42,333 nt of DNA. Origin: Acidimicrobiales bacterium (GTDB lineage Bacteria; Actinomycetota; Acidimicrobiia; Acidimicrobiales; DASWMK01). Made by a program: the position numbers and the translations under genes. How positions within the stretch are numbered: the stretch's first letter is position 1; each line of letters starts with the position of its first letter. The stretch is from positions 1-42,333 of the forward strand of contig DASWMK010000088.1 in assembly GCA_036399815.1 (NCBI GenBank), read 5' to 3'. The notes beneath the pieces were generated by a model. It had not been told where the DNA came from. It saw nothing but the letters and a program-made list of their open reading frames with translations, and did not search any database. Shown piece after piece: positions 15,191-24,937 of this stretch.

Positions 15191-15445
15191 ATGTCCAAGA
15201 CCAAGGGCGGCGGGTCCACCCGCAACGGGCGCGACTCCGCCAGCAAGCGCCTCGGCGTGAAGGTGTTCGACGGCGGCCGGGTGCGGGCCGGCGCCATCAT
15301 CGTCCGCCAGCGGGGCACGAAGTTCCACCCCGGCGAGAACGTGGGGCGGGGCGGCGACGACACGCTGTTCGCCACGGCCGACGGCGTCGTGAAGTTCGCC
15401 AGCCGCCGCAACCGCAAGCTGGTCGACGTCCACCCGAGCGACTGA
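15191..15445 (+). CDS. rpmA: 50S ribosomal protein L27
   Basis: Large-subunit protein whose N-terminal tail reaches the peptidyl-transferase centre. The 84 residues match the family: [20 protein letters not shown] at the start, then [19 protein letters not shown] (the L27 signature region). The start follows AGGGG (15180-15184) with good Shine-Dalgarno spacing. In many bacteria obgE comes next; here an 8-kb block intervenes and obgE begins at 23690. A perfect 11-bp hairpin 30 nt after the stop probably terminates the transcript. Confidence 0.98.
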
Positions 15446-15475
15446 CCCGCCGGCCCGCCGGCCGGCCCGACCCGC

Positions 15476-15503
15476 GACGACCCCTCCCCGGTGAGGGGTC
15501 GTC
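15476..15503 (+). terminator. Strong hairpin terminator after rpmA
   Basis: GACGACCCCTC (15476-15486) and GAGGGGTCGTC (15493-15503) form a perfect 11-bp stem with a 6-nt loop (CCCGGT). It is the best hairpin I found in the window. It lacks a T tract, consistent with actinobacterial terminators. Confidence 0.7.
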
Positions 15504-15532
15504 CCGCGCCCGGGTGGGTAGCGCCAGCGGCC

Positions 15533-15994
15533 GTGCAGACCTTCGTCCCGTGCGAGGACTTCGCCGAGACGGCGGCCGCCCTCGATCGCCGGCGGCTCGG
15601 CAAGCAGCGGGTCGAGGTGCTCCAGATCCTGCGGGCGCTGACCGTGCCCGGGTACGGCTGGCGGCACCACCCGGCCGTGCTCATGTGGCGGGGCCACGAG
15701 GAGGCGCTCGTCGCCTACGGGCTCGCCATGTGCGAGGAGTGGGTGCGGCGGGGCGGGGCCGACACGGTGTCGGCCAAGCTGCGGGCCGAGGTCGGCGTCG
15801 ACCGGGTGCGCACGCAGCCCGAGCTGGCCGCGGCGGGGGCCATGCCGGCCTGGTGGGGCGACGACCGGGTCCACCGCTCCCACCGGTCCGCGCTCGTCCG
15901 CAAGGACCCCGACTGGTACGGGCCCCGCTGGCCCGACGAGCCCGACGACCTGCCCTACCACTGGCCCGTCCGGTCGGGGGCTCGGCCGGCGTAG
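15533..15994 (+). CDS. MSMEG_6728 family protein (pyrimidine-dimer glycosylase-like)
   Basis: A 153-residue protein that I recognise as the actinobacterial MSMEG_6728 family, which has weak similarity to the Pyr_excise (T4 endonuclease V-like) family; no activity is established. Conserved phrases are QTFVPCEDFAETAAALDRRR, LGKQRVEVLQILRAL, GYGWRHHPAVLMWRGHEEAL and a C-terminal HRSHRSALVRKDP. I start it at the GTG giving MQTF, because relatives begin there and because a TAGCGC -10-like box (15519-15524) lies 8 nt upstream. The in-frame extension to 15491 would run through the rpmA terminator hairpin and is rejected. It lies alone between that terminator and the first tadE gene. Confidence 0.8.
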   Translation: MQTFVPCEDFAETAAALDRRRLGKQRVEVLQILRALTVPGYGWRHHPAVLMWRGHEEALVAYGLAMCEEWVRRGGADTVSAKLRAEVGVDRVRTQPELAAAGAMPAWWGDDRVHRSHRSALVRKDPDWYGPRWPDEPDDLPYHWPVRSGARPA

Positions 15995-15997
15995 TCC

Positions 15998-16025
15998 TAA
16001 AGACCCTGACCCTCGGCGCCGATCG
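15998..16025 (+). promoter_or_regulatory. Candidate sigma-28/WhiG-type promoter of tadE-tadG pair 1
   Basis: TAAA (15998-16001), a 16-nt spacer, then GCCGATCG (16018-16025). The FliA/WhiG consensus is TAAA-N15-16-GCCGATAA. The predicted transcript would start near 16032, leaving about 29 nt before the ATG, including the GTGAGG Shine-Dalgarno element at 16051-16056. Confidence 0.6.
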
Positions 16026-16060
16026 TGGAAGCGACGATGGCAGCCCGGGGGTGAGGCGAC

Positions 16061-16585
16061 ATGGCGAAGGTCGGCGTCGCTGACCGGCAACGAGGCGCAG
16101 TGGTGGTGGAGTTCGCCCTCATCCTGCCCGTGTTCATGATCCTGATGCTCGGCGTGTTCACCGGGGGCATCGCCTACAACCGCAAGCTGGCCATCACCAA
16201 CGGCGGCCGGGAGGCGGCCCGCTTCGGCGCCACCGTGCCGGTGGCCGGCATGGGCATGAACGCCTGGCTCGACAGCGTCGCCGGCGTGGCCGTGGCCAGC
16301 GCCGAGGGCGAGCTCGACAGCGGGACGCCCGGCCGCACGATCTGCGTCGCCTACGTCTACCCGTCCGGCCTCACGCCGACGGACAGGACGGCGAGCCGCC
16401 GGCTGTCCTCGACCGGCACCGTCACGTACGGCACGACCCCCTGCTACTCCGACGGGCAGCCGAACAGCGTCCGCCGGGTCCAGGTCGTCCTCGAGCGCAC
16501 CACCGAGATCCAGGCCCTCGTGTTCACCCGCAACGTCACCCTGCGGTCCCGCTCCGTCGTCCGCTTCGAGGCGTCCGAGCTGTGA
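16061..16585 (+). CDS. TadE-family pseudopilin-like protein (pair 1)
   Basis: Minor pseudopilin-like protein of the Tad/Flp type, expected to be processed by a prepilin peptidase and placed in or across the membrane. The 174-residue protein has a 12-residue leader (MAKVGVADRQRG), a type IV prepilin-like cleavage site before AVVVEF with Glu at mature position 5, and one hydrophobic helix (about 13-37, ALILPVFMILMLGVFTGG). Next comes the TadE phrase NGGREAARFGA. A soluble C-terminal domain contains two cysteines. The ATG has a GTGAGG Shine-Dalgarno element. Its end overlaps tadG of the same pair. No tadA, tadB, tadC or prepilin peptidase gene is in the window, so the assembly machine must be encoded elsewhere. 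Confidence 0.85.
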   Translation: MAKVGVADRQRGAVVVEFALILPVFMILMLGVFTGGIAYNRKLAITNGGREAARFGATVPVAGMGMNAWLDSVAGVAVASAEGELDSGTPGRTICVAYVYPSGLTPTDRTASRRLSSTGTVTYGTTPCYSDGQPNSVRRVQVVLERTTEIQALVFTRNVTLRSRSVVRFEASEL

Positions 16586-18327
16586 TGCGACGGCGCCGGG
16601 CGGCCGGCGACCGGGGCGCGATCACCGTGCTCTTCGCGGCCGCCATGGTCGGCCTGCTGGTGCTGGCCGGCCTCGTCATCGACATCGCCGCCCTGCGCCA
16701 CGACCGGGCCGCCGACCGGGCCGCCGCCGACGCCGCCGCCCTCGCCGGCGTGGCCGTCCTCAACCAGGACCCGGTGGCCGGTGTGCCGATGGGCCCCCAG
16801 GCCTGCCAGGAGGTGTGGACCTACTTCCTCCAGAACCGGCCGGACGCCACGCCGGTCCGCACGACGCCGCCGTGCAACAGCTTCACCGGGGCCTGCCTCG
16901 GGGTGCCGAGGGACGTCGTCGGCCGGGCCGGGGCCTACACGGTCACCATCCGCTACCCCGTGCCCGACGGCGACCCGATGATGGACTCCGAGCGGGTGGG
17001 CGGCGACGTGGCGCAGGCCCTCGACGAGATCGACGGCCAGCCGTGCGGCCGCATCGGGGTGCGGGTCGTGCGGGAGCGGGCGCTGGCCTTCGGGGAGGCC
17101 TTCGGCCTCGACTCGACGACCACCGATGTGCACAGCGTGGCGGTGGCGACGACCAGCTACGACGCCCGCTTCCCGATCGCCCTGCTGATCCTCGACCGGA
17201 CCGGGTGCGGGGCGCTGATCGCCAACGGTGGCGGCTCGGTCCTCGTGCGGTCCTCGGGGACCCATCCCGGCTACATCGCGGTCGACACCGACGCCAGCCA
17301 GTGCACGGGCGGGAACTACGGCACCGACGCCCAGGGAGCGGGCAGCACGATCGTCGCCGAGGGGGTGGCGTCCGGGTCGCCCGGCATCATCGCCCTGTAC
17401 GCGCTCCGCCAGACGAACTGCAACATCACCGACCACGCCTGCGACCCTTCCGACGTGGCCGCGAGGACGGTGGCCCCGGCCCCGCTCGGCACGTCCCGGC
17501 GCACCGGCCGCACCCAGGTCGACTGGCGGTTCAACTGCAAGGTCGACTACGGCGCGCTCGTGCTGCGGCCCTGCCCGCTGGCCGGCCAGCGCCAGGCCTA
17601 CATCGACACGTTGACCGCCGCGATCGGCACCAGCGGGAAGCCCCCGGGCTACCAGGACTACAAGGCCACCTACGGCTGCAGCATCGGTCCCGGGACGACC
17701 GTCGAGGTGCCCGTCGGGAACTGGTGGGTCAACTGCTCCCTCGACGTCAAGGGCATCTTGACGTTCAAGGGCGGCAACGTCGTGTTCGACGGCGCCATCA
17801 AGGTCGGCTCGAGCGGGACGTTCAAGATGAACGTCGCCAACACCGGGACGCTCCCGGCCGCCTGCCAGACGACCGTGTGCATCACGTCGTCGTCGGCCAA
17901 CCACGCCTTCGCCTACGTGCGCAGCGGCGGGGTGGAGCGGGTGGCCGGCGGCAACCTCGTGTTCGACAACACCTTCGTCTACCTGGCCAACGGGTCGACC
18001 AGCCTCACCGGCGGCAACGGCTCGCTGACCTGGACGGCGCCGGGGACCAGCCGGTCCCAGCCGTCGGGGCCGTTCGAGGACCTCGCCCTGTGGTCGGCCT
18101 CCACGTTGGCCCACGGCATGTCCGGCGGCTCGGCGCTGACCATCGACGGCGTGTTCTTCACCCCCAACGCCGAGTTCACCTACTCCGGGAGCGGCAACCA
18201 GGTGCAGGCCAAGGCCCAGTTCATCACCTGGCGCCTCAAGGTGACGGGGAGCGGCCAGCTCACCATGTCGCCCGACCCCGACCGGGCCATCGAGTTCCCG
18301 CTGAGCGTGCAGCGGCTCATCCGCTGA
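16585..18327 (+). CDS. TadG-like large surface pseudopilin (pair 1)
   Basis: A 580-residue protein with the N-terminal putative Flp pilus-assembly TadE/G-like domain: leader MRRRRAAGDRG, hydrophobic segment AITVLFAAAMVGLLVLAGLV, then the typical RAADRAAADAAALAGVAVLN. The remaining 500 residues are extracytoplasmic, rich in Gly, Ser, Thr and paired cysteines. They include repetitive stretches such as GGNVVFDGAIKVGSSGTFK and GGNLVFDNTFVYLANGS that look like a beta-solenoid or adhesin-like fold. The ATG at 16585 overlaps the tadE stop (TGATG); a GTG at 16582 is equally possible and adds one residue. It ends 7 bp before the convergent dgt stop. Likely a surface or pilus-tip component; the ligand is unknown. 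Confidence 0.8.
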   Translation: MRRRRAAGDRGAITVLFAAAMVGLLVLAGLVIDIAALRHDRAADRAAADAAALAGVAVLNQDPVAGVPMGPQACQEVWTYFLQNRPDATPVRTTPPCNSFTGACLGVPRDVVGRAGAYTVTIRYPVPDGDPMMDSERVGGDVAQALDEIDGQPCGRIGVRVVRERALAFGEAFGLDSTTTDVHSVAVATTSYDARFPIALLILDRTGCGALIANGGGSVLVRSSGTHPGYIAVDTDASQCTGGNYGTDAQGAGSTIVAEGVASGSPGIIALYALRQTNCNITDHACDPSDVAARTVAPAPLGTSRRTGRTQVDWRFNCKVDYGALVLRPCPLAGQRQAYIDTLTAAIGTSGKPPGYQDYKATYGCSIGPGTTVEVPVGNWWVNCSLDVKGILTFKGGNVVFDGAIKVGSSGTFKMNVANTGTLPAACQTTVCITSSSANHAFAYVRSGGVERVAGGNLVFDNTFVYLANGSTSLTGGNGSLTWTAPGTSRSQPSGPFEDLALWSASTLAHGMSGGSALTIDGVFFTPNAEFTYSGSGNQVQAKAQFITWRLKVTGSGQLTMSPDPDRAIEFPLSVQRLIR

Positions 18328-18334
18328 CGGCCGC

Positions 18335-19402
18335 TCACACGCCGAAGGGCAGGTCCTCCGCCGGCCAGCCGAGCCGCTCGGCGGCCGTGCGCAGCGCGAA
18401 CCGGTCGGTCATCCCGCTCACGTAGCGCACGGCGGCGGCGACCGCCTCGGGCGAGCCGGGGGCGAGGTCGGGCTCGGCCATGGCGGCCGGGTCGGCGAGG
18501 AACGACTCGGTGAGCCGGCGGATCATGGCGATCACCCGCTCGGCCTGGCGGGCGGCGGCCGGGCGGAGGTAGATGCGCTCGTAGTCGAAGGCCCGGAAGG
18601 CGGCGAGGGCGCCGGCCTCGGGCTGGCGCAGCCCGACGGCGCCGGTGGCCTCGATGGTCGCGAGCACGGCGGTCACGAGCCGGTGCAGCTGGGTGCGGCG
18701 GTCGCGCCCGAGGACGTCGGCGACCTCGGCCGGCAGGTCCCGCTCGGCGACGATGCCGGCGGCGCACGCGTCCTCGAAGTCGTGGCAGACGTAGGCGATG
18801 CGGTCCGCCCAGGCCACGACCTCGCCCTCGGGGGTGGACGGCGCCGGCCGGTTCCAGGAGTGGTTGCGGACGGCGTCGAGGGTCTCCGCACAGAGGTTCA
18901 GCGGGGCGAGCACCACGTCGGCCCCGTAGACGGCGTGGTGGTAGCCGCCGGGGACGAACGGGCTGAGCGCGTCCTCCGAGGCGTGGCCGGCGGGGCCGTG
19001 CCCGCAGTCGTGCGCCGTGGCGGCGGCCGCCGTGAGGGCGACGTTCAGCCCGGCCGGCCGGGCGATGCTGACGGCCACCTGGGCCACCTCGATGGCGTGG
19101 GTGAGCCGGGTGCGGAGGTGGTCGTCGGACGGGGCGAGGAACACCTGGCACTTCCCGGCCAGGCGCCGGAACGGCTTGGAGTGCTGGATGCGGTCCAGGT
19201 CGCGCTCGAAGCACGTGCGGTAGGGGTCGGCCTCCTCGGGCACCGCCCGCCGGCCGGCGCCGACCGCCCTCGTCGCCCCGGGCGCCAGCGCCTCGGCCTC
19301 GGCCGCCTCCCGCTCCTCGCGCCCCGCCAGCCGCGCCCCGCCGGGGCGCACGGTGGCCGGCCCGTGGGCCCACGCCACCGCCTCGACGAGCATCCCGGTC
19401 AC
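18335..19402 (-). CDS. dgt: Deoxyguanosinetriphosphate triphosphohydrolase-like protein (HD superfamily)
   Basis: Hydrolyses dNTPs to deoxynucleoside and triphosphate, shaping dNTP pools. The 355-residue protein carries the HD-domain metal ligands: His in RTRLTHAIEVAQVA, the HD pair in TAHDCGHGPAGHASE, and Asp in VVAWADRIAYVCHDFEDA. The dGTPase phrases RTCFERDLDRIQHSKPFRRL and NHSWNRP are also present. I place the start at the GTG complementary to 19400-19402, because a TAGGGT -10 box ends exactly 7 nt upstream; the frame remains open a further ten codons. It lies on the opposite strand between tadEG pairs 1 and 2, convergent with the first and divergent from the second. Dgt commonly lies beside dnaG in bacteria; I see no dnaG here. 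Confidence 0.92.
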   Translation of the reverse strand: MTGMLVEAVAWAHGPATVRPGGARLAGREEREAAEAEALAPGATRAVGAGRRAVPEEADPYRTCFERDLDRIQHSKPFRRLAGKCQVFLAPSDDHLRTRLTHAIEVAQVAVSIARPAGLNVALTAAAATAHDCGHGPAGHASEDALSPFVPGGYHHAVYGADVVLAPLNLCAETLDAVRNHSWNRPAPSTPEGEVVAWADRIAYVCHDFEDACAAGIVAERDLPAEVADVLGRDRRTQLHRLVTAVLATIEATGAVGLRQPEAGALAAFRAFDYERIYLRPAAARQAERVIAMIRRLTESFLADPAAMAEPDLAPGSPEAVAAAVRYVSGMTDRFALRTAAERLGWPAEDLPFGV

Positions 19403-19409
19403 GGCGCGA

Positions 19410-19415
19410 ACCCTA
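19410..19415 (-). promoter_or_regulatory. Candidate -10 box of dgt (leaderless type)
   Basis: On the minus strand this reads TAGGGT and ends 7 nt before the GTG start at 19402. It supports that start over upstream in-frame codons. Confidence 0.5.
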
Positions 19416-19440
19416 CCGGTGGGCGGTGACACGAACGCGG

Positions 19441-19468
19441 TTCACCCGATGGCCGCTCGTGCCGATGG
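19441..19468 (+). promoter_or_regulatory. Weak sigma-28/WhiG-like promoter of tadE-tadG pair 2
   Basis: TTCA (19441-19444), 16 nt, then GCCGATGG (19461-19468). The -10 half and the spacing match those at pairs 1 and 3; the -35 half matches TAAA at only two of four positions. The predicted transcript would start close to the GTG at 19477. Confidence 0.35.
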
Positions 19469-19476
19469 TGAGGGGC

Positions 19477-19932
19477 GTGAGGGATCGGGAGCAGCGGGAG
19501 CGGGGTGATCGCGGCGCGGTCGTCGTCGAGGCGGCCTTCGTCATCCCCGTCCTCGTCGCCCTCCTGCTCGGCGTGATGGAGCTGGGCTGGGCGTTCGGCC
19601 AGCACCTCGACGTGCGCCACGCGGCCAGGGAGGGGAGCCGGCTGGCGGCCGTCAACTACCGGACGAGCACGTCCTCGTCGGGCGCCACCCAGGGCAACCA
19701 GATCGTCGACGAGACGTGCGGCCGCATGGACCTCGCCACCGGCGCGCGGGTGACCATCGCGCGGTCCTCGGCGGCGGTCGGGGCGACGGTCACGGTCACG
19801 GTGCGGGCCCCACTCGACCAGCTCACCGACTTCTACTCCTTCGCCCTCGGCGGCGTCGACCTCGTCAGCACCGTGCGGTCGCGGCTGGAGCAGAAGGCGA
19901 CCTGGGACCCGGTCACGAGGACCTGCCCGTGA
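19477..19932 (+). CDS. TadE-family pseudopilin-like protein (pair 2)
   Basis: A 151-residue TadE-type protein. The leader MRDREQRERGDRG is followed by AVVVEA with Glu at mature position 5, the membrane helix AFVIPVLVALLLGVMELGWA, and the family phrase RHAAREGSRLAAVN. I choose the GTG at 19477 because it gives a 13-residue leader like those of pairs 1 and 3 (12 each) and lies just after the GCCGAT element. The same frame is open to a GTG at 19426 (17 residues more) and has an ATG at 19465, so the start is uncertain. The C-terminal domain is mainly beta, with DFYSFALGGVDLVSTVRSR. Its stop overlaps the partner tadG by GTGA. Confidence 0.85.
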   Translation: MRDREQRERGDRGAVVVEAAFVIPVLVALLLGVMELGWAFGQHLDVRHAAREGSRLAAVNYRTSTSSSGATQGNQIVDETCGRMDLATGARVTIARSSAAVGATVTVTVRAPLDQLTDFYSFALGGVDLVSTVRSRLEQKATWDPVTRTCP

Positions 19933-21368
19933 GGCGCCGCCTGCGACGACGCCACCGGGGCGACGACGGGTTCGCCGTGCTCGTCGTGGCCGTCGCCATG
20001 GTGGCGATGGTCGTGTTCGTGGCCTTCGCCGTCGACGTCGGGATGCTCTACAACGAGCGCCGTCAGGACCAGGCCGCGGCCGACGCCGCCGCCCTCGGGG
20101 GTGCGATCAGCTTGGCGGCCGGTGTCACCGCCGCCACCGAGGCCGCCGCCGCCGTGGCCAGGAGCGACCTCGACACGACCTACACCGACACCCAGTGGAA
20201 GGCCCTGTGGGCGGCGTGCCAGGACCCCGGCCACCTCCGGTTCACCGGCAAGGTCCTCGGCCAGAGCACCCAGTGCCTCTCGGTGTCGACCAGGGGCGAG
20301 CTCCGCGTCCGCCTTCCCGACCAAGTCGTCGAGACCGCCTTCGCCAGGGTCGTCGGCATCGAGACGGTCACGACGAACGCGCTCGCGGTGGCCGGCGCCC
20401 GGGCCGGCGGTGGCGGGCTCCTGCCCTTCGCCATCCTCGTCACCGCCGTCGACGGCAACCAGCTGTGCCTCAGGACGGCCACGAACGGGCAGGCCGTGCC
20501 ACCCTGCACCGGGTCGTCGTCCGGCAACTTCGGCGCACTCGAGGTCCCCCAGTACGGCAACGACCAGATGGGGACCCAGAACATCCCTTGCAACATCAAC
20601 AAGTCCGACCAGCTCGCGGTCAACATCGCCGTCGGAATCGACCACCTCGTGCTGCCGTGGCAGGGGACCGACGTCCTCGACTCGTGCACCAAGCCGTTCG
20701 GCCCGACGATGCTGAACACCTTCCAGGGCATCTCGAACGGCCTGTTCGAGGGGTTGATCGAGGGCGTCACCGTCGCCGGGACCACGTTCCCAGGCCGGAT
20801 GACGACGGGCTCGAACCCGAAGCGGACGCTCCGCGAAGGCTCGACGAACTGGAACGTGGACGACCGGCCGCTGTGGGAGTACATCCCGACGGGCAAGGGC
20901 GCCGGCGTCCCTGCGTCCTGCCGGCGGGAGACGTTCGCGGCCCTCGCGGCGGCAAGCCGTACGGCGAACCTCACGACCTGCCTGTCGGACTGGCGGACGA
21001 CGGGGCCGAGGGGCGTGCTGTTCGACCTCGACGCCGACCGCGACGACGTGCCCGACATCCTCGGCTCGGCCCGGTTCGGGTTCGCCCCCCAGTTCGTCGA
21101 GAACAGCTTCCCGAACGGCAACGGCTACCTGCGGGTCAAGAACCACCGCGGGGTGTTCCTCCAGGGGATGTGGTTCGGCTGCAACGGCAACGGCTGCGCC
21201 GTCGCCTACCACCCCGGCGAGGGCACGGGCGTGGTCACGATCCCCCACGGCAAGGCGATCGACCAGGTGAGCGGCTTCCTGCTGGCCAACGGGATGCTGC
21301 CCGAGTCGATCATCGAGAACGGGGCCGGTGGGTCGCTCGGCCCATATTCGATCTCGCTCACCCGCTGA
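19929..21368 (+). CDS. TadG-like large surface pseudopilin (pair 2)
   Basis: A 479-residue TadE/G-like protein with leader MRRRLRRRHRGDDG, hydrophobic helix FAVLVVAVAMVAMVVFVAFA, then NERRQDQAAADAAALGGAIS, the usual alanine-rich helix after the membrane segment. The large C-terminal domain has many cysteines (for example CNINKSDQ and GCNGNGCAV), which in an exported protein suggests disulphides. It also carries VLFDLDADRDDVPDILG, an Asp-rich stretch that could bind calcium. The GTG start forms a GTGA overlap with tadE. The C-terminal sequence does not resemble that of the pair-1 or pair-3 TadG by eye. Confidence 0.8.
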   Translation: MRRRLRRRHRGDDGFAVLVVAVAMVAMVVFVAFAVDVGMLYNERRQDQAAADAAALGGAISLAAGVTAATEAAAAVARSDLDTTYTDTQWKALWAACQDPGHLRFTGKVLGQSTQCLSVSTRGELRVRLPDQVVETAFARVVGIETVTTNALAVAGARAGGGGLLPFAILVTAVDGNQLCLRTATNGQAVPPCTGSSSGNFGALEVPQYGNDQMGTQNIPCNINKSDQLAVNIAVGIDHLVLPWQGTDVLDSCTKPFGPTMLNTFQGISNGLFEGLIEGVTVAGTTFPGRMTTGSNPKRTLREGSTNWNVDDRPLWEYIPTGKGAGVPASCRRETFAALAAASRTANLTTCLSDWRTTGPRGVLFDLDADRDDVPDILGSARFGFAPQFVENSFPNGNGYLRVKNHRGVFLQGMWFGCNGNGCAVAYHPGEGTGVVTIPHGKAIDQVSGFLLANGMLPESIIENGAGGSLGPYSISLTR

Positions 21369-21382
21369 CCCCTCCCGATGAC

Positions 21383-21410
21383 TCAACTCGGACGGTCGGG
21401 CGGCCGATCC
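21383..21410 (+). promoter_or_regulatory. Candidate sigma-28/WhiG-type promoter of tadE-tadG pair 3
   Basis: TCAA (21383-21386), 16 nt, then GCCGATCC (21403-21410): one mismatch to TAAA and the same spacing as at pair 1. It lies between the pair-2 tadG stop and the pair-3 tadE ATG, and supports the start at 21432 over the in-frame ATG at 21378, which would lie upstream of the promoter. Confidence 0.5.
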
Positions 21411-21431
21411 TGGCGGCGAGGAGGGGATGGG

Positions 21432-22004
21432 ATGGCACGCCGGGCGCGGAGAGGACGGCAGCGGGGATCGGTGCTGGTCGAGGCGGCCATCATCTTCCCC
21501 GTCCTGCTGATGGTGACCTTCGGGATGATCGAGTACGGGCTGGCGTTCATGTCCGCTTCGACGACCAGCTCGGCGACCCGGTCGGGGGCCCGCATCGCGT
21601 CCACGGCCTACGCCCCTGCCGTCAGGTCCGGCACCGCCAACGGCGTGATCGACCAGGTGCGGCTGGCCGTGGAGGACGACCTCAAGGCGCTGTCCCGGGC
21701 CACGCCCGTGAAGCTGTGGATGTACCGGGCCGACCCGTCGAGCCCCGGCGGCGCCCCCACCGGGTCGCCGAACTTCACCACCTGCACCACGAACTGCATC
21801 AGGTGGACGTGGGACGGCAACCACTTCGCCAGCCGGGCGGGCACGTGGCCGTCGCCGACGGCGTGCGGCAGCACCCTCGACAGCGTCGGCATCTACGTCC
21901 AGGTCCGCCACGAGTTCCTGACGGGGTTCTTCGGGAACGGCAAGACCATCTCGGAGCACACCGTCATGCGGATCGAGCCGCTCCCGACCGACCAGTGCCC
22001 GTGA
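21432..22004 (+). CDS. TadE-family pseudopilin-like protein (pair 3)
   Basis: A 190-residue TadE-type protein: leader MARRARRGRQRG, then SVLVEA with Glu at mature position 5, and the helix AIIFPVLLMVTFGMIEYGLA. The polar part begins with TSSATRSGARIASTAYA. The ATG at 21432 is preferred because AGGGG lies 5 nt upstream and the leader length then equals that of pair 1. The ATG at 21378 has no Shine-Dalgarno sequence and lies before the likely promoter. The C-terminal domain contains three cysteines (TTCTTNC and TACG). It overlaps the partner tadG by GTGA. Confidence 0.85.
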   Translation: MARRARRGRQRGSVLVEAAIIFPVLLMVTFGMIEYGLAFMSASTTSSATRSGARIASTAYAPAVRSGTANGVIDQVRLAVEDDLKALSRATPVKLWMYRADPSSPGGAPTGSPNFTTCTTNCIRWTWDGNHFASRAGTWPSPTACGSTLDSVGIYVQVRHEFLTGFFGNGKTISEHTVMRIEPLPTDQCP

Positions 22005-23671
22005 CGCCCGACGACGCCCCGGCCGGCGACCGCCTGAGCGGCGACGACGACGGGTTCGTCGCCGTCTGGTTCGCCCTCCTCCTGCTCGTGCTGTTGGCCT
22101 TCGCCGGCGTCGGCATCGATGTCGCCAACTGGTGGTTCACCGCGCAGCGGGCCCAGCGGGCGGCCGACGCCGCCGCGCTCGGCGGCGTCGTGTTCCTCCC
22201 CGGCGACCCGGTGACGGCGGCCAGCACGGCCGTCGACATCTCGGGCCGCAACGGCTACCGCAACGGGGTCAACGCCAGCGTCGTCGCCACCCAGGAGCCG
22301 AATCCGACCCGGCTCAGGGTGAAGGTGACGACCGTCGTCGACAACTACTTCGTCGGGCTCGTCGCCGCCGACCGCCAGACGATCAGCCGGCAGGCGGTGG
22401 CCGACTTCCAGGGGCCGGTCCCGATGGGCAGCCCCGAGAACCGGCTCGGCAACGACCCGGACCAGCCGGCCGCGGCCCTGCCCCAGATGTGGCTCAACCT
22501 GGCGGCCAGGGGAGCCAACAAGGCCAACGGCGACCGCTACCAGTCGACCGGCTGCGGCGTGGCCGCCTACCAGTGCTCGGGCACCAACAACGAGTACAGC
22601 CCGAACGGCTACTTCTTCACGGTGCGGGTCAGCGCCATCGGCTCCGGCCCGCTCACGTTCCAGGCCTTCGACCCGGTGTACGCGACGGTCGGCGACAACT
22701 GCGACGTCAACCTGCCGACCGCGGCGCAGGCGACGGCGCTGAAGAACACCGGACGGTCGGAGTACGCCGACGCCCCGACCCGCTACGCCACCGGGTCGAC
22801 CGGCGCCGCCGCGCCGTTCTGCACCGGCGACAACAGCGTGGGCGGCACCGGGATGATCTCGACGTTCATCGTGCGGGCGCCCGACAACACGCCGTGGAGC
22901 AACACCGACAACCCGGTGGTGTCGACGGCGTCGTGCCAGCCCCGCCAGTACGGCGCCTGGGACCAGGCCGTCTACCCCCTCCTCAGCCCGTCGAGCCCGA
23001 CGTACAACCCCACGTTCGCCTCCCAGTTCCGGCGGTGGGTGACGTACTGCCAGATCCCCGCGGGCACGGTCGTGCGGGGCGACTACATCGTGCAGGTCCG
23101 GTCCAACGCTCTCAGCGGCTCGCCGCTCGTGGCGTCCTCGCCGTCGACCGGCGGCCACAACCGCTTCTCCATGCGGGCCGGGTTCGGCACGACGACCCTG
23201 AGCGGCACCGGCGTGTCGCTGTTCGCCACCGGCCGCCTGCCCATCTACATGAACGCCACCGGGTCCGACACCCGGTTCTTCGTCGCCCGCATCCCCCCGA
23301 GCACCGCCGGGCGGACCCTGCACCTCGAGTTCTTCGACGTGGGCGACGCCGCCGCCGCCGGCTCGATCACGATCCTGCGGCCGCTGTCCTACGGCGAGTC
23401 GGCCTTCCCGTCGTGCCGCTTCAAGCGGGACAACTCCGTCGCCGTGAACACCGCGCCGTGCACGCTCACCGGCGTCTCCGCCGCCGGCGGGTACAACGGC
23501 CGGCTGGTGACCGCCGACATCCCGCTCGCCACCAACTACACGTGCAACATGGCGAACGCGCTCGACTGCTGGGTGAAGATCCGCTTCACCTATCCCTCGG
23601 GCACGAGCGTGCAGGACACCACGACGTGGGCCGCCAACGTGGTCGGCGACCCCGTCCGCCTCGTCGAGTAG
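22001..23671 (+). CDS. TadG-like large surface pseudopilin (pair 3)
   Basis: A 556-residue TadE/G-like protein. The leader MTPDDAPAGDRLSGDDDG is acidic, unlike the basic leaders of the other two TadG proteins. Next are the membrane segment FVAVWFALLLLVLLAFAGVG and RAQRAADAAALGGVVFL. The long exported region is rich in Thr, Ser, Asn and Gly with many cysteines, and looks like serial beta-sandwich domains (for example GPLTFQAFDPVYATVGDNC and RTLHLEFFDVGDAAAAG). The GTG at 22001 overlaps the tadE stop as GTGA. The same frame is open for 600 codons upstream, but that part is a shadow of pairs 2 and 3. It ends 18 bp before obgE. Confidence 0.8.
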   Translation: MTPDDAPAGDRLSGDDDGFVAVWFALLLLVLLAFAGVGIDVANWWFTAQRAQRAADAAALGGVVFLPGDPVTAASTAVDISGRNGYRNGVNASVVATQEPNPTRLRVKVTTVVDNYFVGLVAADRQTISRQAVADFQGPVPMGSPENRLGNDPDQPAAALPQMWLNLAARGANKANGDRYQSTGCGVAAYQCSGTNNEYSPNGYFFTVRVSAIGSGPLTFQAFDPVYATVGDNCDVNLPTAAQATALKNTGRSEYADAPTRYATGSTGAAAPFCTGDNSVGGTGMISTFIVRAPDNTPWSNTDNPVVSTASCQPRQYGAWDQAVYPLLSPSSPTYNPTFASQFRRWVTYCQIPAGTVVRGDYIVQVRSNALSGSPLVASSPSTGGHNRFSMRAGFGTTTLSGTGVSLFATGRLPIYMNATGSDTRFFVARIPPSTAGRTLHLEFFDVGDAAAAGSITILRPLSYGESAFPSCRFKRDNSVAVNTAPCTLTGVSAAGGYNGRLVTADIPLATNYTCNMANALDCWVKIRFTYPSGTSVQDTTTWAANVVGDPVRLVE

Positions 23672-23677
23672 CGCCCC

Positions 23678-23683
23678 TATCCT
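23678..23683 (+). promoter_or_regulatory. Candidate -10 box of obgE-proB (leaderless type)
   Basis: TATCCT ends 6 nt before the GTG of obgE, placing the predicted transcription start on the start codon itself. Confidence 0.55.
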
Positions 23684-23689
23684 GGCCCG

Positions 23690-24937
23690 GTGTCGGGCTT
23701 CGTCGACGAGAGCGGCCTCCACGTCCGCGGCGGCGACGGCGGGGCCGGCGCCGTGTCGTTCCGCCGCGAGGCCTACGTGCCGAAGGGCGGTCCGGACGGG
23801 GGCGACGGCGGCAAGGGCGGCGACGTCTGGCTGGTCGCCGACCGCAACGTCGCCTCCCTGCTGGCCTTCAGGGACCACCCGCACCGCGCCGCGGGCAACG
23901 GCGGCCACGGGTCGGGCAAGCGCCGCCACGGCGCCGGCGGGGCCGACCTGCTCGTGCCCGTCCCCGAGGGCACCGTCGTGAAGGACCGGGACGGCACCGT
24001 GCTGGCCGACCTGGTGCGGGTCGGCGACCGCTGGCGCGCCGCCGAGGGCGGCCGGGGCGGGCGGGGCAACGCCAGCTTCCTGTCGAACCGCCGGCGGGCG
24101 CCGTCCTTCGCCGAGCAGGGCGAGAAGGGCGAGGAGCGGTGGCTGCGGCTGGAGCTGAAGCTGATGGCCGACGTCGCCCTCGTCGGGCTGCCCAACGTGG
24201 GCAAGAGCACCCTGATCTCCCGCATCTCGGCGGCCCGGCCCCGCATCGCCGACTACCCGTTCACCACCCTCGAGCCGAACCTCGGCGTGGTCCGCATGGA
24301 GGACGGCGACGAGATGGTGGTCGCCGACGTGCCCGGGCTGATCGAGGGGGCGAGCGAGGGCAAGGGGCTCGGCCACCGGTTCCTCCGTCACGTCGAGCGG
24401 GCCAGGGTGCTCGTCGTCCTGCTCGACCTGGCCGAGGTGGCCGAGCGCCCGCCCGACGCCCAGCTCTCCGTGCTGCTCGACGAGCTCGGCCGCTACCGGC
24501 CCGAGCTGCTGGAGCGGCCGCGGGTCGTGGTCGGCTCCCGGGCCGACCTGGCCGGGTCGGGGCCGGGGGCGGCGTGGGACGGCGACCGGGTGTCGGCGGT
24601 GACCGGCGAGGGCGTCACCCGGCTGGTCGGGCGCATGGCCGACCACGTGCGGGCGGCCAGGGCGGCCGAGCCCGAGCCCGACGGGTACGTCGTGCACCGG
24701 CCGGTGGCGGAGGGCTTCCGGGTCGAGCGGGATGCCGGCGGCGGCTGGGTCGTCGTCGGCCGGCAGGCCGAGCGGGCCGTCGCCCTGTCCGACCTCACCA
24801 ACCCGGACGCGCTGGCCTACGCCCAGGCCCGGCTGCGCCGCATCGGGGTCGACCGGGCGCTGGCGAAGGCGGGGGCCAGGGCGGGCGACACCGTCCGCAT
24901 CGGCGACCTGCGCTTCGACTACGAGCCCGACGGGTGA
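23690..24937 (+). CDS. obgE: Obg/CgtA GTPase
   Basis: Essential GTPase linked to 50S ribosome assembly and stress signalling. The 415 residues comprise the glycine-rich Obg fold (about 1-160, with VRGGDGGAGAVSFRREAYVP), the G domain, and a C-terminal OCT domain (about 325-415, FRVERDAGGGWVVV). G motifs: G1 GLPNVGKST with Lys172, G2 around YPFTTLEPNLG, G3 DVPGLIEGA, G5 SAVTGEG. The G4 position reads GSRADL (Ser283-Arg284-Ala285-Asp286) instead of NKxD, and the G4-G5 interval is short. The start GTG is only 6 nt after a TATCCT -10 box. The stop overlaps proB by GTGA. Confidence 0.95.
   Translation: MSGFVDESGLHVRGGDGGAGAVSFRREAYVPKGGPDGGDGGKGGDVWLVADRNVASLLAFRDHPHRAAGNGGHGSGKRRHGAGGADLLVPVPEGTVVKDRDGTVLADLVRVGDRWRAAEGGRGGRGNASFLSNRRRAPSFAEQGEKGEERWLRLELKLMADVALVGLPNVGKSTLISRISAARPRIADYPFTTLEPNLGVVRMEDGDEMVVADVPGLIEGASEGKGLGHRFLRHVERARVLVVLLDLAEVAERPPDAQLSVLLDELGRYRPELLERPRVVVGSRADLAGSGPGAAWDGDRVSAVTGEGVTRLVGRMADHVRAARAAEPEPDGYVVHRPVAEGFRVERDAGGGWVVVGRQAERAVALSDLTNPDALAYAQARLRRIGVDRALAKAGARAGDTVRIGDLRFDYEPDG

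Follow-up and report, generated by a model that had tools for sequence, protein, structure and literature searches.

Flagellar-type sigma factors have been tied to pili in actinobacteria. In Rubrobacter, WhiG controls type IV pili, and at 12 predicted WhiG promoters mapped starts bore out the prediction (PMC8325347). According to a citation in that paper, FliA-family control in Actinoplanes missouriensis covers type IV pili as well as the flagella of the zoospores. Here we analyse contig C88 (DASWMK010000088.1; 42,333 nucleotides, hereafter the window) from the 4.16-Mb draft genome of an Acidimicrobiales bacterium (287 contigs, 96.7% complete). The window holds three tadE–tadG pairs, named from Pfam TadE/Tad matches, at 16061-18327, 19465-21368 and 21432-23671. 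We find it highly probable that predicted promoters at 15997 and 21382, read by a polymerase carrying a FliA/WhiG-family sigma factor, transcribe the first and third pairs, tadE1-tadG1 and tadE3-tadG3.

As in Rubrobacter, the setting is a unicellular actinobacterium with a WhiG-family sigma factor, and predicted flagellar-type promoters stand before genes for pilus components and a c-di-GMP enzyme. Rubrobacter differs in that the targets there are operons of the pil type IV pilus, their starts have been mapped and the anti-sigma factor has been studied; the present system comprises tadE–tadG pairs known from sequence alone, and the −35 consensus is shifted to CTCAAG. The sporulation sigma factor WhiG of Streptomyces has a close orthologue here, encoded on contig C59, whose −35 recognition helix (σ4.2, LGVTESRVCQIHTKAVLQLR) is nearly identical to that of S. 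venezuelae WhiG. The nearest precedent from experiment nevertheless concerns pili rather than sporulation (PMC8325347). Actinoplanes missouriensis, as it is cited there, is another actinobacterium whose pilus genes come under FliA-family sigma factors, as we predict here; that organism has flagella, whereas neither flagellin nor FlhA was found in the present genome. No report of a connection between WhiG or FliA and tadE came up in the open-access literature that we searched, a body that lacks most subscription journals. The predicted promoters would thus carry WhiG-family pilus control beyond Rubrobacter, to Tad-type pseudopilins and a mostly uncultured actinobacterial order.

Predicted promoters before two of the three tadE–tadG pairs

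We scored the window with a weight matrix trained on the regions upstream of 80 zinc-ribbon protein genes from other Acidimicrobiales, the order to which all our comparison genomes belong; no tad sequence was included. The seed, CTCAAG/GCCGAT, had been noticed among matches in the organism's own genome that included the tadE sites, and hence was not blind; the training loci set the final weights. The matrix was run over the window (423,040 placements), tadE upstream regions and selected loci. The tadE3 site ranked first in the window with 18.75 bits and the tadE1 site second with 18.16 bits, the training loci having a median of 22.1 bits and a 10th percentile of 18.1. The chance of both top sites falling within 100 nt upstream of the three tadE starts is about 1e-5. 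The candidate before tadE2 scored 10.84 bits (rank 12), which is inseparable from the background. Thus, the pattern that the sequence-only reading had placed before all three pairs holds at two sites and fails at the third.

All three strings are present as that reading described them, with the form TNNA-N16-GCCGAT and a TG downstream, although the TG lies outside the conserved motif. Their spacing, said to be identical, is so between −35 and −10. It is not so relative to the start codon: the −10 element precedes it by 37 nt at tadE1 and 23 nt at tadE3, while at tadE2 GCCGATGG overlaps the in-frame ATG at 19465, one of several possible starts (GTG 19459, ATG 19465, GTG 19468 or GTG 19477). The tadE3 site sits inside the 63-bp gap 3' of tadG2. 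Exact TAAA-N15/16-GCCGAT occurs once in the window and in 0 of 100 shuffles, while GCCGAT alone is common, with about 50 copies. Genome-wide, TAAA-N14-17-GCCGAT has two matches, the tadE1 site and another apparently inside a gene; we rejected the exact TAAA consensus as a search model too strict for the order. The relaxed CTMA-N15-17-GCCGAW has 47 matches, with the tadE1 and tadE3 sites among them.

The training loci yield the order consensus CT(C/T)AAG-N15-GCCGA(T/A), and since these loci have C or T at the third position of the −35, TAAA is unusual in the order. The published criterion allows up to two mismatches in all to a −35 TAAA and a −10 GCCGATAA at 15-16 nt (PMC8325347). The tadE1 site, with TAAA-N16-GCCGAT exact and CG for the final AA of the −10, has two mismatches and falls inside it; the tadE3 site, with one mismatch in TCAA and CC for the final AA, has three and falls outside. 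Both fit the order-specific consensus, which would become usable for σWhiG across the order.

Two lines of evidence point to the motif acting as a promoter in the order. First, we compared the spacing of CTMAAG-N11-19-GCCGAT matches between six sigma-positive and seven sigma-negative genomes, the latter being those with no FliA/WhiG match at E 1e-45. In the sigma-positive genomes, 52 of 77 matches fell at N14-15 (p = 3e-17), and in the organism's own genome all 10 did (p = 3e-7), versus 10 of 42 in the sigma-negative set (p = 0.46). The two sets differ with a Fisher p of 7e-6. This test replaced a reversed-pattern control for genome counts, which was dropped because reversed GCCGAT contains TAG and the sigma-negative genomes showed an equal excess. 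Second, one own-genome match lies before a gene of about 110 codons for a zinc-ribbon protein (C43, L069), and its orthologues retain the element upstream despite a diverged spacer: at least 10 of its 12 bases are present in 70 of 78 non-redundant loci, versus about 3 per 78 in shuffles. This zinc-ribbon-like protein (MATIRASC...; L280-L359) has no Pfam match.

Further, the site recurs before tadE itself. Conservation in relatives had been set beforehand as a test that could refute the sequence-only reading; the element was found before tadE in nine further families. Among tadE genes of sigma-positive relatives, 10 of 123 have a site of at least 16 bits; the rate in other windows of these tadE loci would give 0.57 (p = 4e-10). 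With a strict pattern, the count is 9 of 127 (own genome included) against 0.17-0.32 expected, and the excess disappears in control patterns with one altered −10 base or altered spacing (0-1 before tadE).

Candidate sigma factors and competing readings

Two proteins of the genome exceed the curated cut-off (189.6 bits) of TIGR02479, the FliA/WhiG family, so that the homologue presupposed by the sequence-only reading is present. The C59 protein (282.5 bits) aligns with the S. venezuelae WhiG structure (6pfj/6pfv) at 334 bits versus 168 bits for FliA, WhiG being its closest solved relative, and is the WhiG orthologue; its gene reads like a neighbour of tsf- and pyrH-like genes, named from reading. 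The C57 protein (205.7 bits), a more distant FliA/WhiG relative, falls in a separate deep clade, here termed class F. The earlier idea that pseudopilin expression is tied to a motility or sporulation sigma factor stands in so far as FliA/WhiG-family sigma factors and predicted sites at tadE1 and tadE3 exist. Its motility half does not: the draft genome, 96.7% complete, has no detectable flagellin (PF00669) or FlhA (PF00771), and motility is therefore an unlikely function. In the comparison set, FlhA is present in 9 of 40 genomes.

We propose that a WhiG-family sigma polymerase would initiate at the 15997 and 21382 elements, coupling the two minor pseudopilin-like pairs to a WhiG-family surface and c-di-GMP regulon. 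This regulon would also take in genes for a diguanylate cyclase, the class-F sigma factor and the zinc-ribbon protein, and possibly those for a type IV pilus ATPase and an FlgN-like protein. c-di-GMP might gate the sigma factor through the anti-sigma factor RsiG, which has been reported in 3 of 4 Acidimicrobiales (PMC8325347), and the tad products may build a Tad-type surface structure. We lean somewhat toward the C59 WhiG orthologue as the acting sigma factor, with class F as the other candidate.

The alternative that survives best is that the promoters are real and read not by WhiG but by the class-F protein, a surface-structure sigma factor of flagellum-less cells paired with the FlgN-like gene. 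We hold this to be possible, if clearly the less favoured assignment. It accords with the tadE sites of the class-F-only genomes G002, G003 and G016, with the 23.2-bit site (−10 GTCGAT) before the organism's own class-F gene, and with a site before the neighbouring FlgN-like gene in G002. Against it, tadE sites occur in the WhiG-only genomes too, at 19.1 bits in G004 and 19.7 bits in G028, and the spacing of both window sites, N15, is the one that WhiG-only genomes favour (42 of 50, versus 21 of 41 in class-F-only genomes; p = 0.001). Since tadE sites occur in genomes of either kind, either sigma factor can probably read them.

That all three pairs are under sigma-28 control, with a weak tadE2 site working with an activator, seems unlikely to us. 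The tadE2 candidate shares the TNNA-N16-GCCGAT geometry, and its TTCA −35 half recurs at the tadE of G004 (TTCAAG) and of G029; against this stand its score within the window background and the overlap of its −10 with the start codons, which leaves almost no leader. Finally, a fortuitous pairing of GCCGAT with an A-rich hexamer in GC-rich intergenic DNA, the housekeeping sigma factor driving the tad pairs, would suit the commonness of GCCGAT and the background-level tadE2 site but is improbable given the top two window ranks just before tadE under an independent matrix and the recurrence in nine families, and no sigma-70-type consensus site was found at 15400-23800, such sites being poorly predicted in GC-rich genomes.

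Several points nevertheless weigh against control of the tad pairs by a WhiG-family sigma factor. The promoter calls are predictions drawn from the DNA sequence only. The tadE1 site has A at the third −35 base, where the consensus has C or T, and the tadE2 site is lost in the background at 10.84 bits. More than 100 of the 123 tadE genes in relatives have no such site, and among those of the "GQ" class it was found in 0 of 21; given these counts and the 9 of 127 overall, the link is with one class of tadE operon, and it recurs without being anywhere near universal. The lean of N15 toward WhiG carries little weight, coding sequence read in frame also giving this distance, and WhiG and the class-F sigma factor could share or split sites. 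The RsiG motif E(X)3S(X)2R(X)3Q(X)3D turned up only in chance frames of the retrieved loci, no genome-wide RsiG search having been made.

Evenly balanced, in our judgement, is the wider proposal that WhiG/FliA sigma factors of flagellum-less cells run a surface regulon across the Acidimicrobiales, the flagellar sigma factor having been re-purposed and at least one phage having adopted its promoters. The same judgement covers the content of that regulon: Tad-like pseudopilins, GGDEF/PilZ proteins, the order-conserved zinc-ribbon protein and an FlgN-like protein. The role of flagellar-type sigma factors in flagellum-less actinobacteria thereby becomes testable.

Gene layout and further sites

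The TadE (PF07811) and Tad (PF13400) matches agree with the Tad pilus family definition of TadE plus TadG-like pseudopilins (Table 1); the function of the pairs is presumed from these family names. A minus-strand gene (18335-19432), which reads like an HD-domain-like protein, stands between the first pair and the other two, and the genes upstream of the three pairs read as ribosomal L21/L27. Just 5' of tadE3 lies a ribosome-binding-like site, GAGGAGGGG. A suspected frameshift in tadG3 was ruled out as an effect of the open reading frame listing.

Table 1. Features of the tad region, with positions in the window.
Feature	Position	Strand	Details
Predicted sigma-28/WhiG-type promoter of tadE1-tadG1	15997..16023	+	−35 CTAAAG 15997-16002, N15, −10 GCCGAT 16018-16023
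tadE1, 174 aa	16061..16585	+	Pfam TadE PF07811, E=7e-13
tadG1, start overlaps tadE1 stop	16582..18327	+	Pfam Tad PF13400, E=1.5e-5
tadE2 candidate site, TTCA-N16-GCCGATGG	19441..19468	+	Background-level; overlaps in-frame ATG 19465 and GTG 19468
tadE2	19465..19932	+	Pfam TadE PF07811, E=2e-12
tadG2, GTG start overlaps tadE2 stop	19929..21368	+	Pfam Tad PF13400, E=4e-6
Predicted sigma-28/WhiG-type promoter of tadE3-tadG3	21382..21408	+	−35 CTCAAC 21382-21387, N15, −10 GCCGAT 21403-21408
tadE3	21432..22004	+	Pfam TadE PF07811, E=5e-14
tadG3, GTG start overlaps tadE3 stop	22001..23671	+	TadE-like N-terminus, E=2e-6; reading frame runs to stop at 23671

Elsewhere in the genome, matrix sites precede the zinc-ribbon gene (25.5 bits) and a PAS-GGDEF diguanylate cyclase gene on C158 (19.4 bits), with a weak site before a pilB-like type IV pilus ATPase gene on C278 (14.6 bits). 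Two divergent sites of 24.5 and 22.2 bits, seven bases apart, lie at C53:10752-10811 (L067), flanked by genes for an exported protein and a DUF2630 protein. A gene for a camelysin-like exported protein (PF12389; C183, L053) starts right after a CTCA-N16-GCCGAT match. In G002, a PilZ protein gene has a site, as does the FlgN-like gene noted above.

In about five genomes (L002/L014, L192/L197, L196, L199, L200), a matrix site stands before the class-F sigma gene itself; such a site suggests autoregulation or a WhiG-to-F cascade. FlgN-like genes adjoin the second FliA-like sigma gene in FlhA-less genomes (L193 in G002, L198 in G009, L201 in G013, and own C56/C57). In G002, the two genes are convergent. 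In the organism's own genome, both lie at contig ends (FlgN-like on C56, class F on C57) and are so oriented that the G002-like arrangement could result if the ends join. The own FlgN-like match, at 26.8 bits, is below the Pfam cut-off of 30.5, and that of G009 is above it.

A phage-like contig, G016:C7 (L360-L365; 115,733 bp), codes for portal and head proteins. A simple motif scan of it gave no sigma-like open reading frame, and its full leader pattern had no match in IMG/VR. Over spacings from 8 to 24, it has eight CTAAAG...GCCGAT pairs, every one of them at N14-15, and several of the promoter-like pairs are followed by ATATATATATGA leaders. From this arrangement, the phage appears to use WhiG/FliA-family promoters.
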